The notes under the pieces were generated by a model. The model ran no database searches and was not told where the DNA came from. It saw only the letters and a list, made by a program, of their open reading frames with translations. From positions 1-64,000 of the forward strand of contig CANQQE010000009.1 of the NCBI GenBank assembly GCA_947625935.1: a stretch of 64,000 nt of DNA. The letters run 5' to 3'. The position numbers were made by a program, and so were the translations under genes. Source of the DNA: an uncultured Muribaculaceae bacterium (lineage in GTDB: Bacteria; Bacteroidota; Bacteroidia; Bacteroidales; Muribaculaceae). The stretch's first letter is position 1. Every line of letters begins with the position of its first letter. Shown in pieces: positions 6,952 to 27,626 of the stretch.

Positions 6952-8220
6952 ATGGAGACTTCTATACTACTTGAAATATTACGTGACCAACGAGAGGAGC
7001 TTGATACTCTTCGTTCCCAACGCTTTTGCAAACGGAAGGAAGAAGATATGGTTAAGCTTGAGAGCAAAAAGGCTCAAGTGGTAATAGGTGTACGCCGCAG
7101 TGGAAAATCGACATTGTGTTTCAACGTATTGGACAAAGCTCAGGTTAAATTTGCTTATGTGAATTTTGACGATGAGCGTTTAGTCCGTTTGACAGCCGAT
7201 GATCTGAACGATGTATTAAAGTGCCTTTACCAAATTTATGGTGATTTCACTCACTTATTTCTTGACGAGGCGCAGAATATAGAAGGATGGCATCTTTTCG
7301 TCAATAGATTGCTCAGGCACGGAATGAAAGTGTTTATAACCGGTAGCAATGCAAAACTACTCAGTAGCGAGCTTTCCACATATCTCACCGGACGCTATAA
7401 TGAAATCGAATTGTATCCTTTCTCGTTCCGTGAATTTTGCGAAATGGAGGAAGTGGAAACAACGAATCTTTCTACAAAAACAGACGCTTTACTCCGCAGA
7501 GCATTTGACAAGTACATGGAGACAGGCGGTTTTCCGGAGATAATCAGTGGTGAGGAAACTGCCGAGGAATATATTGACACATTGGTTTCAAATATTCTGG
7601 AAAGAGACATCGTGCAACGTTTTAAAGTAAGATACAAAGATGCCTTTAAGTCACTGTCGAATCATCTTTTGAATAATGCCCCATGCGAAATTGTCTATAC
7701 GGCTTTGCAGAAGACTTTTAATTTCAAAAATGACAAAACCGTTGAGAATTATGTCGGATACCTATATCAGGCTTATCTCCTGAAACAGCTACGCAAATAT
7801 TCCACTAAAAGTAGCGAGAGGATTCGTAACGCTAAATGCTACCCCATAGACGTATCTCTTATGAACGCCAGAAAGGATGCCTTTGCAAAAGATAATTTTG
7901 GATGGAGGCTTGAGTCTTTGGTTTATCTGGAGTTATGCAGGAAATATGGAACCGGTTACGATGTCTATTACCACAAAACAGACTCTTATGAAGTGGATTT
8001 CGTAGTTTGTCATCGGGCAACGGTTGTTGAACTTGTGCAGGTCTCCTATGACATATCCTCTGCAAAAACTCTTAATCGGGAAACTTCTGCTTTAGCGAAA
8101 GCCGGAACATCTCTCAAATGTGACAAATTAACTCTGGTGACCGCCTTTGAGGAGCGTATGTTGGATGTTAATGGACAAGTCATTAACGTCTATGCTGCTT
8201 ATAAATGGCTTCTAATATAA
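6952..8220 (+). CDS. AAA+ ATPase of the DUF4143 family
   Basis: The ATG at 6952 is preferred because it follows the promoter at 6898-6930; an upstream in-frame ATG at 6886 lies before that promoter. The 422-residue protein has a Walker A motif (GVRRSGKST), a Walker B motif (HLFLDEAQNI), a sensor region (KVFITGSNAKLL) and the C-terminal DUF4143 domain with its nuclease-like signature (YHKTDSYEVDFVV). Members of this family are widespread, often on mobile elements, and their role is not established. The gene stands alone with its own promoter, between the integrase and an unknown gene, so it is probably island cargo. Confidence 0.85.
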   Translation: METSILLEILRDQREELDTLRSQRFCKRKEEDMVKLESKKAQVVIGVRRSGKSTLCFNVLDKAQVKFAYVNFDDERLVRLTADDLNDVLKCLYQIYGDFTHLFLDEAQNIEGWHLFVNRLLRHGMKVFITGSNAKLLSSELSTYLTGRYNEIELYPFSFREFCEMEEVETTNLSTKTDALLRRAFDKYMETGGFPEIISGEETAEEYIDTLVSNILERDIVQRFKVRYKDAFKSLSNHLLNNAPCEIVYTALQKTFNFKNDKTVENYVGYLYQAYLLKQLRKYSTKSSERIRNAKCYPIDVSLMNARKDAFAKDNFGWRLESLVYLELCRKYGTGYDVYYHKTDSYEVDFVVCHRATVVELVQVSYDISSAKTLNRETSALAKAGTSLKCDKLTLVTAFEERMLDVNGQVINVYAAYKWLLI

Positions 8221-20366: not shown

Positions 20367-20410
20367 GTGGTCCCACTAGGGCTTGAACCTAGGACTCCCT
20401 GATTATGAGT
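20367..20410 (-). repeat. Right attachment site inside the tRNA
   Basis: This copy of the 44-bp direct repeat equals 5110-5153 and covers the anticodon region through the acceptor end of the tRNA. Integration therefore rebuilds a complete tRNA. Confidence 0.9.
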
Positions 20411-20441
20411 CAGGTGCTCTAACCAACTGAGCTATGGGACC
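20368..20441 (-). tRNA. tRNA-Met (anticodon CAT)
   Basis: The 74-base cloverleaf is complete on the minus strand. The acceptor stem is GGTCCCA / TGGGACC, the D-arm contains AGTTGGTTAGA, the anticodon stem is CCTGA / TCAGG with loop CTCATAA, and the T-arm is CTAGG-TTCAAGC-CCTAG. The discriminator is A and CCA is not encoded. Anticodon CAT could belong to elongator Met or to Ile2 (lysidine-modified); the overall sequence favours elongator Met. It serves as the island integration site. Confidence 0.9.
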
Positions 20442-20606: not shown

Positions 20607-21395
20607 TCAGTCCCCGCCGAGAGCCGCCATCAAAGCCGTCACGGCAGCGGGAATGTCTGAGGGATTACGCTCAAGACACTTCACAAACAGCGACCCGACA
20701 ATTCCACCGGCCGAGCAGGCGCGGGCTGCGTTAAGCGTAGCAGGGTTGGAGATGCCGAAACCAATCAGACGCCTGTTACGCAGCCCCATGGAGTCGACTC
20801 GCCGGAAATAGGCGAGCTCCTCGGATCCGTAGCTGCCGCGGGTGCCGGTGGTGGACGCCGACGAAACCATATAGATAAATCCGCTGCAATTATCGTCAAT
20901 CAGACGGATGCGCTCCTCCGAAGTCTCGGGAGTGATGAGCATGATTATCGGCAGGTCATACTTGTCGCACAGCGGTTTATACTCCCTCAGATACTCGTCA
21001 AACGGCAGATCGGGTATGATCAGACCGTCGATGCCCGAAGCCTTGCACCGGGCAAACAGACGCTCTACGCCATATTGCAACATCGGATTGAGATAACCCA
21101 TCAGAATCATGGGGGTGTCGCCAGCGGCGGCGCGCGCCTCCTCAACCTGACCCAGAAGCCGGTCAAGTGTCATGCCGTTTTTCAACGCCACCGAAGAACT
21201 GTGCTGTATCACCACACCGTCGGCCATCGGGTCTGAGAACGGCACGCCGACCTCTATCATATCGACGCCCCCCTTTACTAACTCCCTGATAATTTCGCCC
21301 GTGGAGTCGAGCGAGGGAAATCCCGCCGTGAAATAGACCGACAGCAGGTCGCGGTCATTAAGTTTAAATAACGATTCTATTCGGTTCATTTTCAT
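20607..21395 (-). CDS. trpA: Tryptophan synthase alpha subunit
   Basis: It cleaves indole-3-glycerol phosphate to indole and glyceraldehyde-3-phosphate and passes indole to TrpB. The 262-residue TIM barrel is full length. The signature VEVGVPFSDPMADG holds a catalytic Glu, a catalytic Asp lies in GIDGLIIPDLPFDE, and the phosphate-binding end GFGISNP is present. The annotated ATG at 21395 overlaps trpF by 32 bases; an ATG at 21389 is an equally good start. It is the last gene of the trpDCFA block. Confidence 0.95.
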   Translation of the reverse strand: MKMNRIESLFKLNDRDLLSVYFTAGFPSLDSTGEIIRELVKGGVDMIEVGVPFSDPMADGVVIQHSSSVALKNGMTLDRLLGQVEEARAAAGDTPMILMGYLNPMLQYGVERLFARCKASGIDGLIIPDLPFDEYLREYKPLCDKYDLPIIMLITPETSEERIRLIDDNCSGFIYMVSSASTTGTRGSYGSEELAYFRRVDSMGLRNRRLIGFGISNPATLNAARACSAGGIVGSLFVKCLERNPSDIPAAVTALMAALGGD

Positions 21396-22059
21396 TGTAA
21401 ATTCTAAGTGACAGAATAAATTTCACTAACTTGTGGAGGTCCTTCACTCCGGCCGATGTCTCAAAACGGCTGTTTATGTCGATTCCCGCCAATCCGGGGC
21501 GCATGGCGGCCACTATAGCCTCCACATCGTCGGGGCCTATGCCTCCACCCAGAAGGTACTGTACGCCAAGCGGATAGTCCTCAAGTAACCCCCAATCAAA
21601 CTTTTCACCGCTGCCGCCGCGGGCCGGGGTCTTTTTGTCAAGCACAAAAAGATCCACGCATCCTTCGTAGGGGCGATAGTCAGCCCAATTCACGTCATTA
21701 TCTACCCCTATGGCCTTCAGCACCTTATACCCCTTGGAGCGCAGTCTGGCGCACTGCTCCGGCGGCTCCGTCCCGTGAAGTTGCAGATGCGTGATGCCAT
21801 ACCGCTCGGCTATCGACACAATCTCGTCATCGGTGCGGTCTACGAACACCCCCACCGGCCTTATGTATTCAGGAAGCGTTTTCACTACTTCGGGGTTCAG
21901 CCCCGAAGCGTCGCGCGGAGATGATTTGTGGAATATGAACCCCATGAGCATGGGGTGAAGCGCAGCCACATCCATGATGTTGGCCCGATCCTTCATGCCG
22001 CACACTTTGATGACCATGTCGGCATGGCGCGGTTGCTGAAATTTACTGTTTCCCATCAT
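21364..22059 (-). CDS. trpF: Phosphoribosylanthranilate isomerase
   Basis: It converts phosphoribosylanthranilate to the carboxyphenylamino-deoxyribulose phosphate that TrpC uses. The family N-terminus IKVCGMKD carries the catalytic Cys, VGVFVDRTDDEI follows, and YLLGGGIGPDD and GIDINSRFE (catalytic Asp) are near the end. The typical family start corresponds to the ATG at 22017; the ATG at 22059 adds 14 residues and overlaps trpC by 17 bases. Overlaps on both sides show tight translational coupling within the operon. Confidence 0.93.
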   Translation of the reverse strand: MMGNSKFQQPRHADMVIKVCGMKDRANIMDVAALHPMLMGFIFHKSSPRDASGLNPEVVKTLPEYIRPVGVFVDRTDDEIVSIAERYGITHLQLHGTEPPEQCARLRSKGYKVLKAIGVDNDVNWADYRPYEGCVDLFVLDKKTPARGGSGEKFDWGLLEDYPLGVQYLLGGGIGPDDVEAIVAAMRPGLAGIDINSRFETSAGVKDLHKLVKFILSLRIYNENEPNRIVI

Positions 22060-22831
22060 TTATAAAATCATTTAATGCCGACGCCGGGTCAGCGTACCTC
22101 ATAAACCTCTCACCCATCAAAAAACCTTGGTATCCGGCCGCTCTAAGCTCACTCACCTGTTCCATCGACGTCAGCCCGCTCTCCGCGACTTTCACGATAT
22201 CAGCCGGCAACATTGCAGCCATCGACAACGATTCCTCTATGTCGACCATGAACGTGGCGAGGTTGCGGTTGTTGACCCCGACCATATCCACCCCTTCAGC
22301 CACCATGTCGAGTTCACAGGCACCGTGCAGCTCCAAAAGCACCTCCAACCCCACACTGTGCGCGGTTTGCGTGAACCGTTCGACCTCTTTAGCCGTCAGA
22401 ACCGAGGCTATCAGCAACACCGCATCCGCACCGTAACACCGCGCCTCGAGTATCTGACGCTCATCGACCACAAACTCCTTACGCAGCAACGGCAACGACG
22501 ACGATTCACGAGCTGCGGCGAGGTCGTCGAGCGAACCGCCGAAGTAAGCGGTGTCGGTCAGTACCGAACAGGCCGCAGCCCCGGCCCGCTCATAGCCGCT
22601 CACCACCGTTCCGGCCATAGCCATCGGATGAAGCTCACCTTTCGACGGCGACCGGCGTTTGAACTCGGCTATTATGCCTGTTGGCGACTCGGCGAGCCGC
22701 CGACTCATCGACAGCGGGGCGCGCGCCGCCCGCGTCACACCCTCCTCAACCCCGCGGTAGAGGCCGAGAGCGGATTTGGCGGCTACCTCGCGCCGCTTGT
22801 TAGCCACTATTTGTTGCAGTATATCAGTCAT
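22043..22831 (-). CDS. trpC: Indole-3-glycerol phosphate synthase
   Basis: It closes the indole ring from carboxyphenylamino-deoxyribulose phosphate. The 262-residue TIM barrel begins with the usual MTDILQQIVANKRREVA. Conserved elements are IIAEFKRRSPSKG (substrate-binding Lys), LLRKEFVVDE (catalytic Lys), LLELHG, VGVNNRNL and VKVAESGL. It overlaps trpD by 8 bases and trpF by 17, consistent with a single mRNA. Confidence 0.95.
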   Translation of the reverse strand: MTDILQQIVANKRREVAAKSALGLYRGVEEGVTRAARAPLSMSRRLAESPTGIIAEFKRRSPSKGELHPMAMAGTVVSGYERAGAAACSVLTDTAYFGGSLDDLAAARESSSLPLLRKEFVVDERQILEARCYGADAVLLIASVLTAKEVERFTQTAHSVGLEVLLELHGACELDMVAEGVDMVGVNNRNLATFMVDIEESLSMAAMLPADIVKVAESGLTSMEQVSELRAAGYQGFLMGERFMRYADPASALNDFINDGKQ

Positions 22832-23825
22832 TTCCGTTAAGTTCTATGAATCGTTTGAAACATTTTAACGCCCGTCCCGATGCTATCGACTCCTCGGCCA
22901 TGGCAATAGCGTCGGCTAAGGGAAGCTGCGGCTCAAGTGTGATTAAAGCGAATGCGGCGTTGGCCACCACGCAATTGCGTTGCGCCGGGGTCGAATACCC
23001 CCCTAAGACGGCGTCAAAGATAGCGGAGGCCTCCTCGACCGTTTCACCCCCCGACAGCTCCTCCTCCCCGACCATGGGGAGCCCTATTTCCTCAGGGGTG
23101 TAAACCCTTTCGCCACTGACGTTTGCCACTTTGAAAGGAGCTGTCAGCGAAATTTCGTCATAACCGTCAAGCGAGTGTACGACCGTACAATTAATCCCCT
23201 CGTTCTGAGCTATGTAATTGTACAGGCGCATCAATTTCAGATTATACACCCCCAACAATTGATGGCGCGGCATGGTAGGGTTGACCAACGGGCCCAGCAT
23301 ATTGAAAAACGTTCTCACCCCAAGCGACCGCCTCACCGGGCCGACGCTTTTCAGCGCGGGGCTGAAAAACGGTGCGTGCAGATAAGCCACACCGCTTGCA
23401 TCCAACGACTTACGCAGGCGGTCGATGTCAGCCGTGAATTTGACACCATGCTGTTCAAGCACGTTTGACGCCCCTGAGATTGAGCTGGCGCCGTAATTGC
23501 CGTGTTTCACCACCTTACGCCCCGCCCCCGCAAGCACGAAGCAGGTTGCCGTCGAGATATTGAAACTGTTTTTGCCGTCGCCGCCGGTGCCCACTATGTC
23601 GATGGCATCGACACCACCGAAATCCACCGGCCGACGCCGTTCAAGTATGGCGTCGCGGAAACCCGTCAGCTCATCCAACGTGATGCTCCGCATCAGATAG
23701 ACCGTCATGAACGCCGAGAGCTGGCAATCGTTGTAACGCCCGTCGGCTATATTGAGCAGCACCTCGCGGGCTTCACCGCGCGAAAGGCTCTTGTGTTCAA
23801 ACATTTTGTAAAGCAGATTCTTCAT
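22824..23825 (-). CDS. trpD: Anthranilate phosphoribosyltransferase
   Basis: It transfers phosphoribose from PRPP to anthranilate. The 333-residue protein has the PRPP-binding signature DIVGTGGDGKNSFNIST, followed by KHGNYGASS and the GVRTFFNMLGPLVNP segment. It is not fused to the glutaminase TrpG as in enterics. It is the first gene after an internal promoter, leader peptide and terminator (23851-24048), so it heads the separately attenuated trpDCFA unit. Confidence 0.95.
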   Translation of the reverse strand: MKNLLYKMFEHKSLSRGEAREVLLNIADGRYNDCQLSAFMTVYLMRSITLDELTGFRDAILERRRPVDFGGVDAIDIVGTGGDGKNSFNISTATCFVLAGAGRKVVKHGNYGASSISGASNVLEQHGVKFTADIDRLRKSLDASGVAYLHAPFFSPALKSVGPVRRSLGVRTFFNMLGPLVNPTMPRHQLLGVYNLKLMRLYNYIAQNEGINCTVVHSLDGYDEISLTAPFKVANVSGERVYTPEEIGLPMVGEEELSGGETVEEASAIFDAVLGGYSTPAQRNCVVANAAFALITLEPQLPLADAIAMAEESIASGRALKCFKRFIELNGND

Positions 23826-23850: not shown

Positions 23851-23893
23851 GGAAAAAAGAGAAGCCACCGCAATCATCTCTGACCCGATGGCT
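23851..23893 (-). terminator. Second trp attenuator terminator (upstream of trpD)
   Basis: On the minus strand AGCCATCG (23886-23893) pairs with CGGTGGCT (23863-23870), with one G-U pair, followed by TCTCTTTTTT. The 5' arm is also complementary to CCGATGGC inside the leader peptide gene (23947-23954), which in turn can pair with GCATCGG just after the Trp-Trp codons (23964-23970). These are the four segments of a ribosome-mediated attenuator. Confidence 0.8.
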
Positions 23894-23929
23894 AATTCAT
23901 ATTATTCATCTATTTTTTGAACAGGCTTG

Positions 23930-24013
23930 TCACAATGCAGTCAGCCGCCATCGGAATTTGTCACCGATGCGCCACCAACCATTTCGAAATATTGAGACAT
24001 TATTCATAATCAT
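23930..24013 (-). CDS. trpL: Trp leader peptide 2 (before trpD)
   Basis: The 27-codon frame contains GWWRIGDKFRW: a Trp-Trp pair (codons at 23972-23977) and a third Trp. The corresponding peptide before trpB contains WWRIGDENRW, so the arrangement is duplicated. The predicted transcription start from the adjacent promoter is so close to the first ATG (24013) that the ATG at 24007 may be the one used. Ribosome stalling at the Trp pair would block the first RNA segment and favour the antiterminator. Confidence 0.8.
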   Translation of the reverse strand: MIMNNVSIFRNGWWRIGDKFRWRLTAL

Positions 24014-24017
24014 GCTG

Positions 24018-24048
24018 CAAATATAGCTAATTTTTCTATGCTAACAAA
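24018..24048 (-). promoter_or_regulatory. Internal promoter of trpDCFA
   Basis: On the minus strand, TTTG (24045-24048) and TATATTTG (24018-24025) are 19 bases apart, immediately before leader peptide 2. Confidence 0.65.
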
Positions 24049-24084
24049 TATTTATTCAAAATAGACTTATAATTTTTATATTTA

Positions 24085-24168
24085 TTATGTCGTTTGGCTT
24101 GCCGCCGCCGACATCAGATGGCAATACATCGCCGCGAAAAACACCAATGCCACCCCAAAGATGGCCAT
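24085..24168 (-). CDS. Possible 27-residue membrane peptide after trpG
   Basis: A short frame just downstream of trpG encodes MAIFGVALVFFAAMYCHL and a short polar tail, one predicted membrane helix. The bases AAGAGGAG lie about 7 bases before the ATG and could bind the ribosome. Upstream in-frame codons add KRRW, but no earlier ATG exists. It may be chance coding; no family is recognised. Confidence 0.3.
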   Translation of the reverse strand: MAIFGVALVFFAAMYCHLMSAAASQTT

Positions 24169-24210
24169 AAGCCATCTCCTCTTTATCGTTCCTATTCCCG
24201 GAAATTGCAG

Positions 24211-24780
24211 TCAATGTTTTAACCAGTTGGAGATAATCGTCAGCCCGTCGGGGGTCAGTATCGACTCCGGGTGAAACTGCACCCCTCTGATGTCAAGATC
24301 GCGGTGACGCATCGCCATGATTTCGCCGTCGGGGCTGACTGCCGTCACCTCCAAGCAGTCGGGCAACCCGGTTGAATCCACCACCCAGGAATGATAGCGG
24401 CCAACTTTAAACTCCTTGGCCAACCCCTCAAACAGATAATCGGGCTTCAGCACTGTAGCGGTCGACTGCAGACCGTGATACACCTGCGACAGGTTGCGCA
24501 GACGCGCACCGAAGCACTCCCCTATTGCCTGATGACCCAGACATACACCGAGAATCGGTTTCTCCGCAGCATAGCGGCGTATCACCTCATCCACAATCCC
24601 TGCCTCTGCCGGGACACCCGGGCCAGGCGATATTATTATCTTGTCATATTTCCCCACCTCGGCCACACCTATCGCGTCGTTGCGCGCCACGGCCGGTTCC
24701 ACCCCAAGCTCGCGCGCCGCATGGACTATGTTGTAGGTAAACGAGTCGTAGTTATCTATTATAAGCAGTTTCATCATCAT
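24211..24780 (-). CDS. trpG: Anthranilate synthase glutaminase component
   Basis: This class I glutamine amidotransferase supplies ammonia to TrpE. The 189-residue protein has IIDNYDSFTYN at the start, the nucleophile Cys in ILGVCLGHQAIGE, and the catalytic His/Glu in VQFHPESI. Three consecutive ATGs (24780, 24777, 24774) are possible starts. It lies 14 bases after trpE and ends the upstream trpBEG block; a 385-base regulatory gap follows before trpD. Confidence 0.95.
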   Translation of the reverse strand: MMMKLLIIDNYDSFTYNIVHAARELGVEPAVARNDAIGVAEVGKYDKIIISPGPGVPAEAGIVDEVIRRYAAEKPILGVCLGHQAIGECFGARLRNLSQVYHGLQSTATVLKPDYLFEGLAKEFKVGRYHSWVVDSTGLPDCLEVTAVSPDGEIMAMRHRDLDIRGVQFHPESILTPDGLTIISNWLKH

Positions 24781-24794
24781 ATTTTTCTAATCGG

Positions 24795-26198
24795 TTAAAA
24801 ACTCTCGGCATATTTTATGGCACCCACGAGCGCGCCGAGCTTATTGTTGGTCTCCTGCAATTCGTTCTCAGGCACCGACCGCGCCACTATTCCCGCGCCT
24901 GCCTGCGAATAGAGGCGATTGCCGTGACTCAGAAAGCTCCTGATGGTGATGGCCTGGTTAAGGCTTCCGTCAAAGCCGATGAAGCCTATACACCCGGCAT
25001 AGGTCATGCGGCCGTATGGCTCAATCTCGTCGATGAGCTGCATGGCTCTCACCTTGGGCGCGCCGCTAAGTGTCCCGGCGGGAAATGTCCCGGCATAGAG
25101 ACGGTAGGTGTCGGCGGCCGCGGGTAGCTTGGCTTTGACCCTCGACACCATGTGAATGACGTGGGAATAATACTGTATCTGTTTCAGGAAATCAATCTCG
25201 ACCTTCCCCCCGCCGCGGCTCAGGTCGTTGCGGGCTAAGTCGACGAGCATTATATGCTCGGCGTTCTCCTTCTCGTCGGCGAGCAACGCCTCGGCAAGCT
25301 CCCGGTCCCGCGACTCATCGCCGGTGCGCCTGAACGTCCCCGCTATCGGGTCGATGTAGGCATAGCCGCCCGATACCCTCAGATGCGTCTCGGGCGAGGA
25401 ACCGAACACTTTGAACGACCCGAAATCGAAGTAAAACAGATAGGGCGACGGATTGATGCTGCGCAACGCACGGTAGACGTTGAACTCGTCACCCTTGAAA
25501 CCCTGCTCGAAACGCCGCGACAGCACTATCTGAAACACATCGCCACGCCTGACGTGCGATATGCCCCGCTCAACCATCCGGCAATATTCGGCATCGGTGA
25601 TCGGCGACGTGGAGTCACCCACCGCCTTGAATGGATATTGAGCCACGTTATTGTTGCGTATCACGCTCACCACCTCGTCTATGCGCGACTGCTCCCCGGG
25701 GAGCAGATGCTCGTGAATCGCCATCGTGTTCTTGTAATGGTTCACTTTGACGATAAAGCGGTAGAGCACGTACTTCATATCGGGGATGTCGCGGAATGTC
25801 TCATCTTTGGGCTGCACATCCACCCGCTCGAAATATCTCACGGCATCATATGCCGTATAGCCAAGCAGCCCGTTGACATCACCGCTTCCCTCCCCCTCGA
25901 CGGCAAACGATTCCACATAACCGCGCAGCTCCCCGATCACATCGACGCCGTCGGCTATCGGTTTCACGAAGGTTTCACCGCCGGGATACGACGCTGTCAC
26001 CATCTCGTTGTTGACCGTGAACGAAGCTATCGGGTGTATCCCTATGTAGCTCACCGAATTTTGCGACGCGTGATAGTCGGAGCTTTCGAGCAACGCCGAC
26101 TCTGGATAAAGGTCACGGATTTTGAGATATATCCCCACCGGGGTTTCGAGGTCGGCCGGAAGCTCGCGGCTGACCACTGTCAGTTCATGCTTTTTCAT
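24795..26198 (-). CDS. trpE: Anthranilate synthase component I
   Basis: It makes anthranilate from chorismate with ammonia from TrpG. The C-terminal chorismate-binding domain contains [55 protein letters not shown] and [17 protein letters not shown]. The N-terminal domain has the [16 protein letters not shown] region that includes the usual feedback (Trp-binding) ESS-type motif. The ATG at 26198 is chosen, since the frame upstream has only a TTG at 26204; it overlaps the trpB stop, indicating coupling. Confidence 0.95.
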
Positions 26199-27384
26199 TG
26201 TCAAAATATTTCATGTAAGTGTGCATATCTTTGTCACCACGACCCGAGAGGTTGACCACCACCACATCATCCGGGGCAAACTCCAGGAGATCGAGAGCAC
26301 CCAGCGCGTGGGCCGATTCGAGAGCGGGGATGATTCCTTCGAGACGTGTCAGCGTCAACGCCGCGTCGAGAGCCTGACGGTCGGTGACGGCAACCATCTC
26401 CGTGCGCCCGGTCGAAGCCAGAAAAGCGTGCAACGGCCCTATACCAGGATAGTCGAGACCGGCCGACACCGAATAGGGCTCCACAATCTGGCCGTCTGCC
26501 GTCTGCATCACCATGGTGCGCGCACCGTGGATGATACCCTCCGACCCCGCCTGCATCGTCGCGGCGGTCATCCCGGTGTCGACCCCAAGCCCCGCGGCCT
26601 CGGCGGCAACAAGCCTCACTGCCTGATTGTCAATGAAATGGTAAAACGCCCCGGCGGCATTGCTTCCCCCGCCCACACAGGCGATAACGCAGTCGGGATA
26701 ACCGCGCCCGGTCTGTTCGCCAAGCTGCGAAATCATCTCCTCGCTTATGACCGACTGAAATCTCGCCACCATCTCAGGATAGGGATGAGGGCCTACAGTG
26801 CTCCCTATCACATAGAAACTGTCGGGATTGCAACACCAGTCGCGTATAGCCTCATTCGTGGCATCCTTCAGCGTCATGTTACCGCTGCTCACAGGCACCA
26901 CCCGCGCTCCGAGCATCTTCATCCGTTCCACGTTGGGCTGCTGGCGTGCCACGTCGGTAGCACCCATGTAGACCACGCATTCAAGCCCCATTAAGGCGCA
27001 CACCGTCGCAGTTGCCACCCCGTGCTGCCCCGCGCCGGTCTCGGCTATGATGCGCCGCTTACCCATGCGTTTGGCGAGCAACACCGAGGCGATGGCGTTG
27101 TTTATCTTGTGGGCACCGGTATGGTTGAGATCCTCTCGTTTGAGATAAATGTTTGTGTGATACCGCGCACTGAGCCTTTCCGCTTTGTATAGCGGCGATG
27201 GACGTCCAACATAGTCGCGCAGCAGTCCGCGGAACTCAGCGTTAAACTCCTCGTCGTCGATATAACGGTAATATGCTTCAGTGAGCCGCTCGATGTTGCC
27301 GTGAAGAATCTCCGGGATGTATGCCCCCCCGAACCGCCCGTAGTAGCCGGCATCGTCGACCGGCAGGTCATGGTGAAATCTCAT
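26185..27384 (-). CDS. trpB: Tryptophan synthase beta subunit
   Basis: This PLP enzyme condenses indole with serine. The 399-residue protein has the PLP lysine in [12 protein letters not shown], the [10 protein letters not shown] loop with its catalytic neighbourhood, the phosphate-binding [10 protein letters not shown] and the C-terminal NLSGRGDKD. It is the first structural gene of the locus, as usual in Bacteroides-type trp operons (trpBEGDCFA). It follows a 200-base leader that contains a promoter, a Trp-rich leader peptide and a terminator. Confidence 0.96.
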
Positions 27385-27410
27385 ATCCTATAGTTATTGA
27401 TTTGCATAAA

Positions 27411-27444
27411 CAAAAAGCCATCGCAGTGTTTCAACCCGATGGCT
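27411..27444 (-). terminator. First trp attenuator terminator (upstream of trpB)
   Basis: On the minus strand AGCCATCG (27437-27444) pairs perfectly with CGATGGCT (27416-27423) around a 13-base loop and is followed by TTTTT. The 5' arm extends to AGCCATCGG (27436-27444), which is also a perfect 9-base complement of CCGATGGCT in the leader peptide gene (27512-27520). That segment can instead pair with GCATCGG at 27530-27536, next to the Trp-Trp codons. Confidence 0.85.
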
Positions 27445-27492
27445 CAATATAACTTAATTAACTCTTAAACTTTAAATCATTCCGACAATGCT

Positions 27493-27561
27493 TCAACAAC
27501 ACCGCCGCGACAGCCATCGGTTTTCATCGCCGATGCGCCACCAACAAAGCTGATATGTCAT
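27493..27561 (-). CDS. trpL: Trp leader peptide 1 (before trpB)
   Basis: The 22-residue frame reads MTYQLCWWRIGDENRWLSRR and ends in two Cys. It has adjacent Trp codons at 27538-27543 and a third Trp just before the second RNA segment. It starts about 28 bases after the predicted transcription start and ends 49 bases before the terminator hairpin, a layout like enteric trpL. Three Trp in 22 residues, duplicated in leader 2, is far above chance for Trp. Confidence 0.85.
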   Translation of the reverse strand: MTYQLCWWRIGDENRWLSRRCC

Positions 27562-27594
27562 GTCGTTTAACATTATGGTATAATAATTACGTTG

Positions 27595-27626
27595 CAAATT
27601 TATAAACATTCAATATAAAAACCAAA
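27595..27626 (-). promoter_or_regulatory. Promoter of the trpBEG block
   Basis: On the minus strand TTTG (27623-27626) and TAAATTTG (27595-27602) are separated by 20 bases. It sits upstream of leader peptide 1. Confidence 0.7.

Follow-up and report, generated by a model that had tools for sequence, protein, structure and literature searches.

In the trpL leader of Escherichia coli, tandem Trp codons lie beside segment 1 of the RNA, segment 2 can pair with segment 1 or, as the antiterminator, with segment 3, pairing of segments 3 and 4 makes the terminator, and the stop codon of the leader peptide falls between segments 1 and 2. Work on attenuators by Vitreschak and colleagues from 2004 is said to include some from Bacteroidetes/Chlorobi. 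The closest described motif of this phylum is Bacteroid-trp (RF01692), which is listed under Bacteroidetes in Table 1 of Weinberg et al. (2010; PMC2864571), with a y for RNA and another for cis-regulatory. Its Rfam label is 'Bacteroidete tryptophan peptide leader RNA', and another paper likens it to the E. coli Trp leader and places it ahead of the trp operon of Flavobacterium psychrophilum (PMC6414381). Here we analyse 64,000 nucleotides (nt) of an uncultured Muribaculaceae bacterium (positions 1 to 64,000 of contig CANQQE010000009.1, assembly GCA_947625935.1; hereafter the window, and its genome G000), whose trp operon very probably carries two copies of a ribosome-mediated Trp transcription attenuator, one at its head and one before its second half.

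The operon runs on the minus strand in the order trpB-trpE-trpG-trpD-trpC-trpF-trpA according to the list of open reading frames (ORFs), and the same gene set is seen in relatives; the gene names are our presumptive assignments, made from recall and without a family scan of the window proteins. Leader 1 (win1) spans about 27626-27411 before trpB, and leader 2 (win2) about 24048-23853 between trpG and trpD. Each comprises a promoter, an ORF of 26 or 27 codons encoding WWRIGD and a later RW, four short segments and a terminator. A first-pass annotation of this DNA had proposed exactly these parts, and all of them were located at the places it gave; of its coordinates, 23851 is the end of the leader 2 T run and 27626 the -33 box of leader 1. 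Both promoters (P1 and P2) have the form TTTG...TAnnTTTG with a box spacing of 19 or 20 nt, a promoter consensus quoted for Bacteroides in PMC7366714. The leader 2 ATG coincides with the expected transcript start or is no more than a few bases from it, and judging from the sequence the mRNA may be nearly leaderless.

According to the proposed mechanism, when Trp-tRNA is scarce the ribosome translating the leader would stall at the two Trp codons and cover segment 1; segment 2 would then pair with segment 3, the terminator would be blocked and the polymerase would go on to transcribe trpBEG (after leader 1) or trpDCFA (after leader 2). With Trp in good supply, the ribosome would move across segment 2 as far as the stop codon shortly beyond it, or would leave and let 1:2 re-form; segment 3 would stay free, 3:4 would form and transcription would end. 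The distal genes could be reached from P2 via leader 2 alone or from P1 via both leaders, and their control would therefore be parallel and serial at once. The scheme supposes that P1 and P2 are transcribed, that both peptides are translated, and that ribosomes stall in response to Tryptophan supply. Separate tuning of trpBEG and trpDCFA, and a benefit from it, would be a plausible consequence, with trpDCFA also reachable from P1 through leader 2.

The two leaders stand out clearly from their surroundings. A covariance model built from 21 relatives and including neither window leader (R2) scores leader 1 at 71.0 bits (E 2.4e-14) and leader 2 at 66.2 bits (E 2.7e-13), these E-values being rough; the best of the remaining four listed window matches (E 0.036) covers the leader 1 terminator on the opposite strand. 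The doubling of an attenuator within one trp pathway, claimed previously, is recovered by a model that had seen neither copy. Across the G000 genome, the exact pattern TGGTGGCGCATCGG-N1-20-CCGATGG occurs in the two leaders only, and the same holds for matches to model R1 at E < 0.7. As for the promoters, TTTG-N17-22-TAnnTTTG is present 10 times in the window on both strands, P1 and P2 being two of the 10; 20 dinucleotide shuffles of the window gave a mean of 0.95 and a maximum of 4.

Counterparts of leader 1 are found ahead of trpB in many relatives, with tandem Trp codons, complementary arms and paired changes in all three helices. The relatives' loci came from a trpB scan (best 80 of 183), and 23 of the 35 offered (L003-L034, L040, L044, L077) were kept in alignment A1 as clear leaders of the present type. 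Left out were L020, L021 and L022 (no TGGTGG), L029 (contig edge), L019 (no terminator by the rule applied), L011, L012, L014, L017 and L034 (other leader layout, or other TGGTGG picked), and L032 and L033 (other layout); alignment A2 is A1 without L040, L077 and both window leaders. The expectation that Trp codons and arms are conserved in relatives holds for leader 1; for leader 2, the genomes and loci examined yielded no counterpart.

Helix counts were made on 25 leaders, the 23 relatives plus the two of the window. Standard pairs fill 91.9% of 148 cells in helix 1:2, 86.6% of 216 in 2:3 and 97.0% of 197 in 3:4, and pairs changed on both sides number 3 of 6, 5 of 9 and 3 of 8, respectively. 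Sliding the partners by 1-3 columns as a control left 12.6-66.2% paired, with maxima of 57.7% (1:2), 55.7% (2:3) and 66.2% (3:4). The outermost 2:3 pair of leader 1 (column 48 with 153) is standard in just 3 of the 25. None of 500 shuffles reached the observed pairing percentage or covariation score, a result that kinship without structure can also give. The number of doubly changed pairs was reached by 3/500 shuffles for 1:2 and 7/500 for 2:3, and the number of pair types in helix 2:3 by 29/500. Conservation of the WWRIGD..RW peptide does not count as independent evidence: since GCATCGG encodes part of R-I-G and CGATGG reads R-W, the peptide is largely forced by the RNA arms.

Some loci among these relatives deserve separate mention. 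A Duncaniella metagenome-assembled genome (L020:7601-8000) has no tandem Trp codons before trpB; an ORF there starts MKQNASYYLRWRRFG and is possibly a one-Trp variant. L011, L014, L017 and L034 carry WRWWR leaders before trpB, in which the partner of the terminator 5' arm is a segment 14-16 nt past the Trp codons; this layout reads as a shorter version of the same idea. Finally, L004, L010 and L025 are metagenome-assembled genomes titled Lachnospiraceae, Paenibacillus and Pseudoflavonifractor; their trp operons fall within the Muribaculaceae-like set, and these titles look wrong.

Predicted folding was examined for 23 of the 25 leaders, L040 and L077 being omitted for terminators misaligned by MAFFT. 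The full-length RNA is predicted to form the terminator in 23/23 leaders and 1:2 in 20/23. Masking segment 1 before segment 4 has been made gives 2:3 in 22/23; with nothing masked at the same stage, 1:2 is predicted in 19/23 and 2:3 in 2/23. In both window leaders, masking segment 1 lets 2:3 win even at equilibrium, and the terminator prevails if segment 2 or no segment is masked. Overall, the model folds behave as expected of a classical attenuator. The mutual complementarity 1:2, 2:3 and 3:4 and the ribosome-stalling design put forward in the first-pass annotation are supported by the sequence and by these folds. The features are collected in Table 1; a further short open stretch, perhaps a remnant, lies between trpG and trpD at 24085-24168 (MAIFGVALVFFAAMYCHLMSAAASQTT).

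Table 1. Coordinates of the two leaders and of the trp ORFs in the window.
Feature	Position	Strand	Sequence or remark
Promoter P1	27595..27626	-	TTTG 27626, TAAATTTG 27602-27595; Bacteroidales type
Leader peptide ORF 1, 26 aa	27493..27573	-	MLNDMTYQLCWWRIGDENRWLSRRCC; start 27573 or in-frame ATG further in
Leader 1 tandem Trp codons	27538..27543	-	
Leader 1 segment 1	27530..27535	-	CATCGG
Leader 1 segment 2	27512..27520	-	CCGATGGCT
Leader 1 segment 3 = terminator 5' arm	27436..27444	-	AGCCATCGG
Leader 1 segment 4 + T run = terminator 3' part	27411..27423	-	CGATGGCT 27423-27416; T run to ~27412
trpB	26185..27384	-	ORF; 65-81% identical across 80 relative loci
trpE	24795..26204	-	ORF listed from TTG; ATG 6 nt further in
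trpG	24211..24780	-	ORF
Promoter P2	24018..24048	-	TTTG 24048, TATATTTG 24025-24018
Leader peptide ORF 2, 27 aa	23930..24013	-	MIMNNVSIFRNGWWRIGDKFRWRLTAL; or from ATG 24007
Leader 2 tandem Trp codons	23972..23977	-	
Leader 2 segment 1	23964..23969	-	CATCGG
Leader 2 segment 2	23947..23954	-	CCGATGGC
Leader 2 segment 3 = terminator 5' arm	23885..23893	-	AGCCATCGG
Leader 2 segment 4 + T-rich run = terminator 3' part	23853..23870	-	CGGTGGCT 23870-23863; run to 23853
trpD	22824..23825	-	ORF
trpC	22043..22831	-	ORF
trpF	21364..22059	-	ORF
trpA	20607..21395	-	ORF

The twin arrangement is unusual in the family. Searches there used strict filters that lose weak matches, and genomes were counted with or without a trp operon. 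At E <= 0.01, 69 of 199 family genomes have a match and seven, including G000, list two. The other six were each discounted, at least one match lacking TGGTGG or being an opposite-strand echo: all six extra stretches in G175, G254, G263 and G287 are without TGGTGG, and the four of them that were read look like plain terminators; in G202 and G318 the extra match is an echo on the opposite strand, over the same terminator. At E <= 1e-5, matching genomes among 398 of the family are spread over 13 of 30 genera, and two matches are found in G000 only. The order-wide figure of 81 of 393 genomes at E <= 0.01 was not counted, as 21 of 27 checked loci outside the family had no TGGTGG in the 200 nt around the match start, a position that was assumed and is possibly off for two short loci. 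None of the 54 other loci with adjacent trpG and trpD has TGGTGG in the intervening gap; these gaps measure from about -4 to 236 nt, 16 of them exceeding 70 nt, and that of the window is 385 nt. In G149 and G150, two other genomes placed in the same genus, trpBE and trpGDCF are on different contigs with several kb after trpE free of trpG, and their rows (L022, L021) do not stand beside the window in the quick trpBE tree. The same-genus rows L021, L022, L132 and L133 have trpBE and trpGDCF at separate places and no TGGTGG in the 330 nt before trpB.

Several observations weigh against a pair of working attenuators. Once segment 1 is masked, the full RNA at equilibrium is predicted to prefer the terminator in 20/23 leaders and to keep 2:3 in three, both window leaders among them; antitermination in those 20 relatives would therefore have to be kinetic. 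Unmasked leader 1 is predicted to prefer 2:3 over 1:2 before segment 4 is made, and one of its two full-length folds lacks the 1:2 pairing. In both window leaders the stop codon begins 14-17 nt beyond segment 2, so that a waiting ribosome may not fully cover this segment. In the comparison of wirings described below, leader 1 scores slightly higher with the terminator 3' side (22.0) than with the 5' arm (21.0). The number of pair types was reached by 198/500 shuffles for 1:2 and 79/500 for 3:4, and that of doubly changed 3:4 pairs by 81/500. A strong match (E <= 1e-5) is present in only 62 of the 398 family genomes, and G149, G150 and G151, all placed in the genus of the window, have no leader match at E <= 0.1.

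One alternative is that the hairpins are ordinary terminators, the peptide match a by-product, and regulation due to something else, such as a repressor, a T-box or TRAP. Model R1 does give weak matches without Trp codons, namely the six stretches in G175, G254, G263 and G287 described above, but tandem Trp codons adjoining segment 1 recur across relatives together with doubly changed 2:3 pairs, and at the gathering score the sole Rfam match in the window is a tRNA (20368-20441), with no T-box or other known leader; we regard this explanation as very improbable. At a gathering score of 49 bits RF01692 is matched nowhere in the window, nor is it matched around the leaders at E <= 10; ARRPOF, which appeared near them at that threshold, was rejected (18.1 bits against a cut-off of 127.2). 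A second concern is that leader 1 works and leader 2 is a decaying or neutral copy, or mainly a promoter keeping trpDCFA transcribed. The lack of a counterpart to leader 2, and the two same-genus genomes with trpBE and trpGDCF on different contigs and no leader match, would fit this; yet leader 2 retains every part although it is only 80.3% identical to leader 1 over 127 aligned positions, is found by a model built without it, and is predicted to switch folds as required; we consider this reading unlikely.

Horizontal acquisition of leader 2 from a different genome of the family, as opposed to copying of leader 1, is compatible with two functional attenuators; we consider it possible, if less probable than not. 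Outside G000, the best two DNA matches to the trpG-trpD gap both fall on leaders of a different genus of the family (G701, 83% over 60 nt; G716, 94% over 34 nt), and leader 2 aligns better with L024 than with leader 1. On the other side, a tree of 24 leaders with upstream DNA (both window leaders, 19 of the 23 A1 relatives, L143, L150 and L151) places the window leaders nearest each other, with weak support (42/74), and no foreign trpD block is clear: of the 13 rows that share the trpBE clade with the window, 12 are again found in its trpDC clade, and the remaining one lacks trpC on its contig. These quick trees hold the rows with the respective genes (35 for trpBE and 33 for trpDC, of 37) and give no clear sign of a chimeric operon. 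The two leaders rank only 2nd and 4th among each other's neighbours, and a recent duplication was rejected at 80.3% identity. The 200 nt upstream of each score 34.9 against one another (200 letter shuffles: mean 19.9, maximum 39.0). Two copies of a Trp attenuator, whatever the source of the second, remain our favoured interpretation of the locus.

Leaders of the present type also precede trpB genes with no other trp gene on the stretch (L013:7818-9188, L040:7829-9173, L047:7821-9155 and L077:7803-9152). Four of nine loci with only trpB found were tested in this respect (L017, L053, L078, L090 and L092 were left out): trpC (PF00218) was found in 0/4 of these genomes, in the other 2 genomes given and in 14/14 controls, and trpA (PF00290) in 0/4 and in 14/14 controls. 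With such a leader in front, a lone trpB looks like a case of indole salvage under Trp control. Use of external indole by TrpB is reported for gut bifidobacteria (PMC11085991). L047 (leader at 7821-7950), titled Parasutterella excrementihominis, has a Bacteroidales-like trpB (69% identical), the leader WWWPIDFTRWCW and matching arms. We take this organism to be a betaproteobacterium, and its trpB and attenuator are for this reason a probable case of horizontal transfer between phyla.

How these leaders relate to Bacteroid-trp was assessed by scoring how well the stretch of leader that follows the Trp codons pairs with either side of the terminator; the scheme is our own and not the Rfam definition, and its 3' target is slightly longer than the 5' arm, which biases toward the 3' side. 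In the present type, the terminator 5' arm is the better partner in 24/26 leaders, the exceptions being leader 1 and L026 (18.5 vs 23.5); leader 2 scores 19.0 with the 5' arm vs 13.5 with loop plus 3' arm. No more than 3 of 60 shuffled segments did as well in 24/26 leaders (exceptions L005 and L008), and the paired segment begins 19-25 nt past the start of the Trp codons. The RF01692-like set comprised 18 leaders, 8 of the 11 Rfam loci (L089, L092 and L093 unused) and 10 picked by us without an Rfam match. Here loop plus 3' arm is the better partner in 18/18, with at most 3/60 shuffles as good in 12, and the paired segment begins at 21-26 nt in 15/18. In these leaders (L083-L088, L090, L091, L042, L043, L045, L068, L075 and others) a segment such as GUCGUGAG pairs with the loop and 3' arm, and in several cases it overlaps the leader stop codon. 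One of them, in Hallella mizrahii (L075:3700-3824), stands before trpD instead of trpB in an operon that has trpDCFA first. Two wirings of the same Trp sensor thus seem to exist in the phylum.

Whether the leaders form a class of Trp attenuator proper to this family, with an antiterminator logic unlike that of Bacteroid-trp at about the same distance of segment 2 from the Trp codons, in this lineage copied or brought into mid-operon to gate the two gene blocks in parallel and in series, and gating lone trpB genes elsewhere, other gut bacteria such as Parasutterella included, is in our judgement evenly poised; within this broader reading, the lone trpB probably makes Trp from indole released by neighbours. 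The kind of regulation is already known from E. coli trp and RF01692, and we found no description of the family's version or of its doubling. Among the matches listed in open-licence PMC literature, as far as the accessible text goes, none concerned Muribaculaceae Trp leaders or two attenuators in one trp operon. The earlier remark that no published description was known for this lineage stands insofar as Rfam misses these leaders, and must be amended insofar as a Bacteroidetes Trp peptide leader, RF01692, is in print. The open papers searched say hardly anything about amino-acid attenuators in Bacteroidota. A pair of designs in which segment 2 occupies nearly the same spot and takes a different partner would allow a natural comparison of ways to wire one sensor. 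The twin copy lends itself to testing serial against parallel attenuation, and the leaders before lone trpB genes point to Trp-controlled indole salvage in the gut.

The window leaders and RF01692 share the phylum, the target genes, a Trp-rich leader peptide and a terminator before trpB or trpE. RF01692 occurs in 11 of 149 genomes of the order, seven over the cut-off and G000 not among them, and L024, L047 and L116 have no Rfam RF01692 match at E <= 0.1. Model R1 detects some RF01692 members (L084, L085 and L090; E 4e-7 to 6e-6), but it also detects plain terminators at about 1e-5. The Rfam structure of RF01692 covers the leader hairpin and not the terminator, and the two types seem to differ in the partner of segment 2, which is mostly the terminator 5' arm in the present type and the loop plus 3' arm in the RF01692-like leaders. 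With E. coli trpL, the window leaders have in common the Trp codons by segment 1 and the 1:2 / 2:3 / 3:4 scheme; unlike trpL, they have a Bacteroidales promoter, two copies in one operon and a stop codon that starts past segment 2, as in 21 of the 25 leaders. Finally, tandem attenuators are described in Salmonella mgtCBR (PMC3641672), with both ORFs in one leader. The two systems are alike in having more than one translated leader ORF per operon (putatively translated, in the window), and they differ in that the window holds two complete attenuators with separate promoters, set before different genes and sensing, as we propose, the same amino acid.

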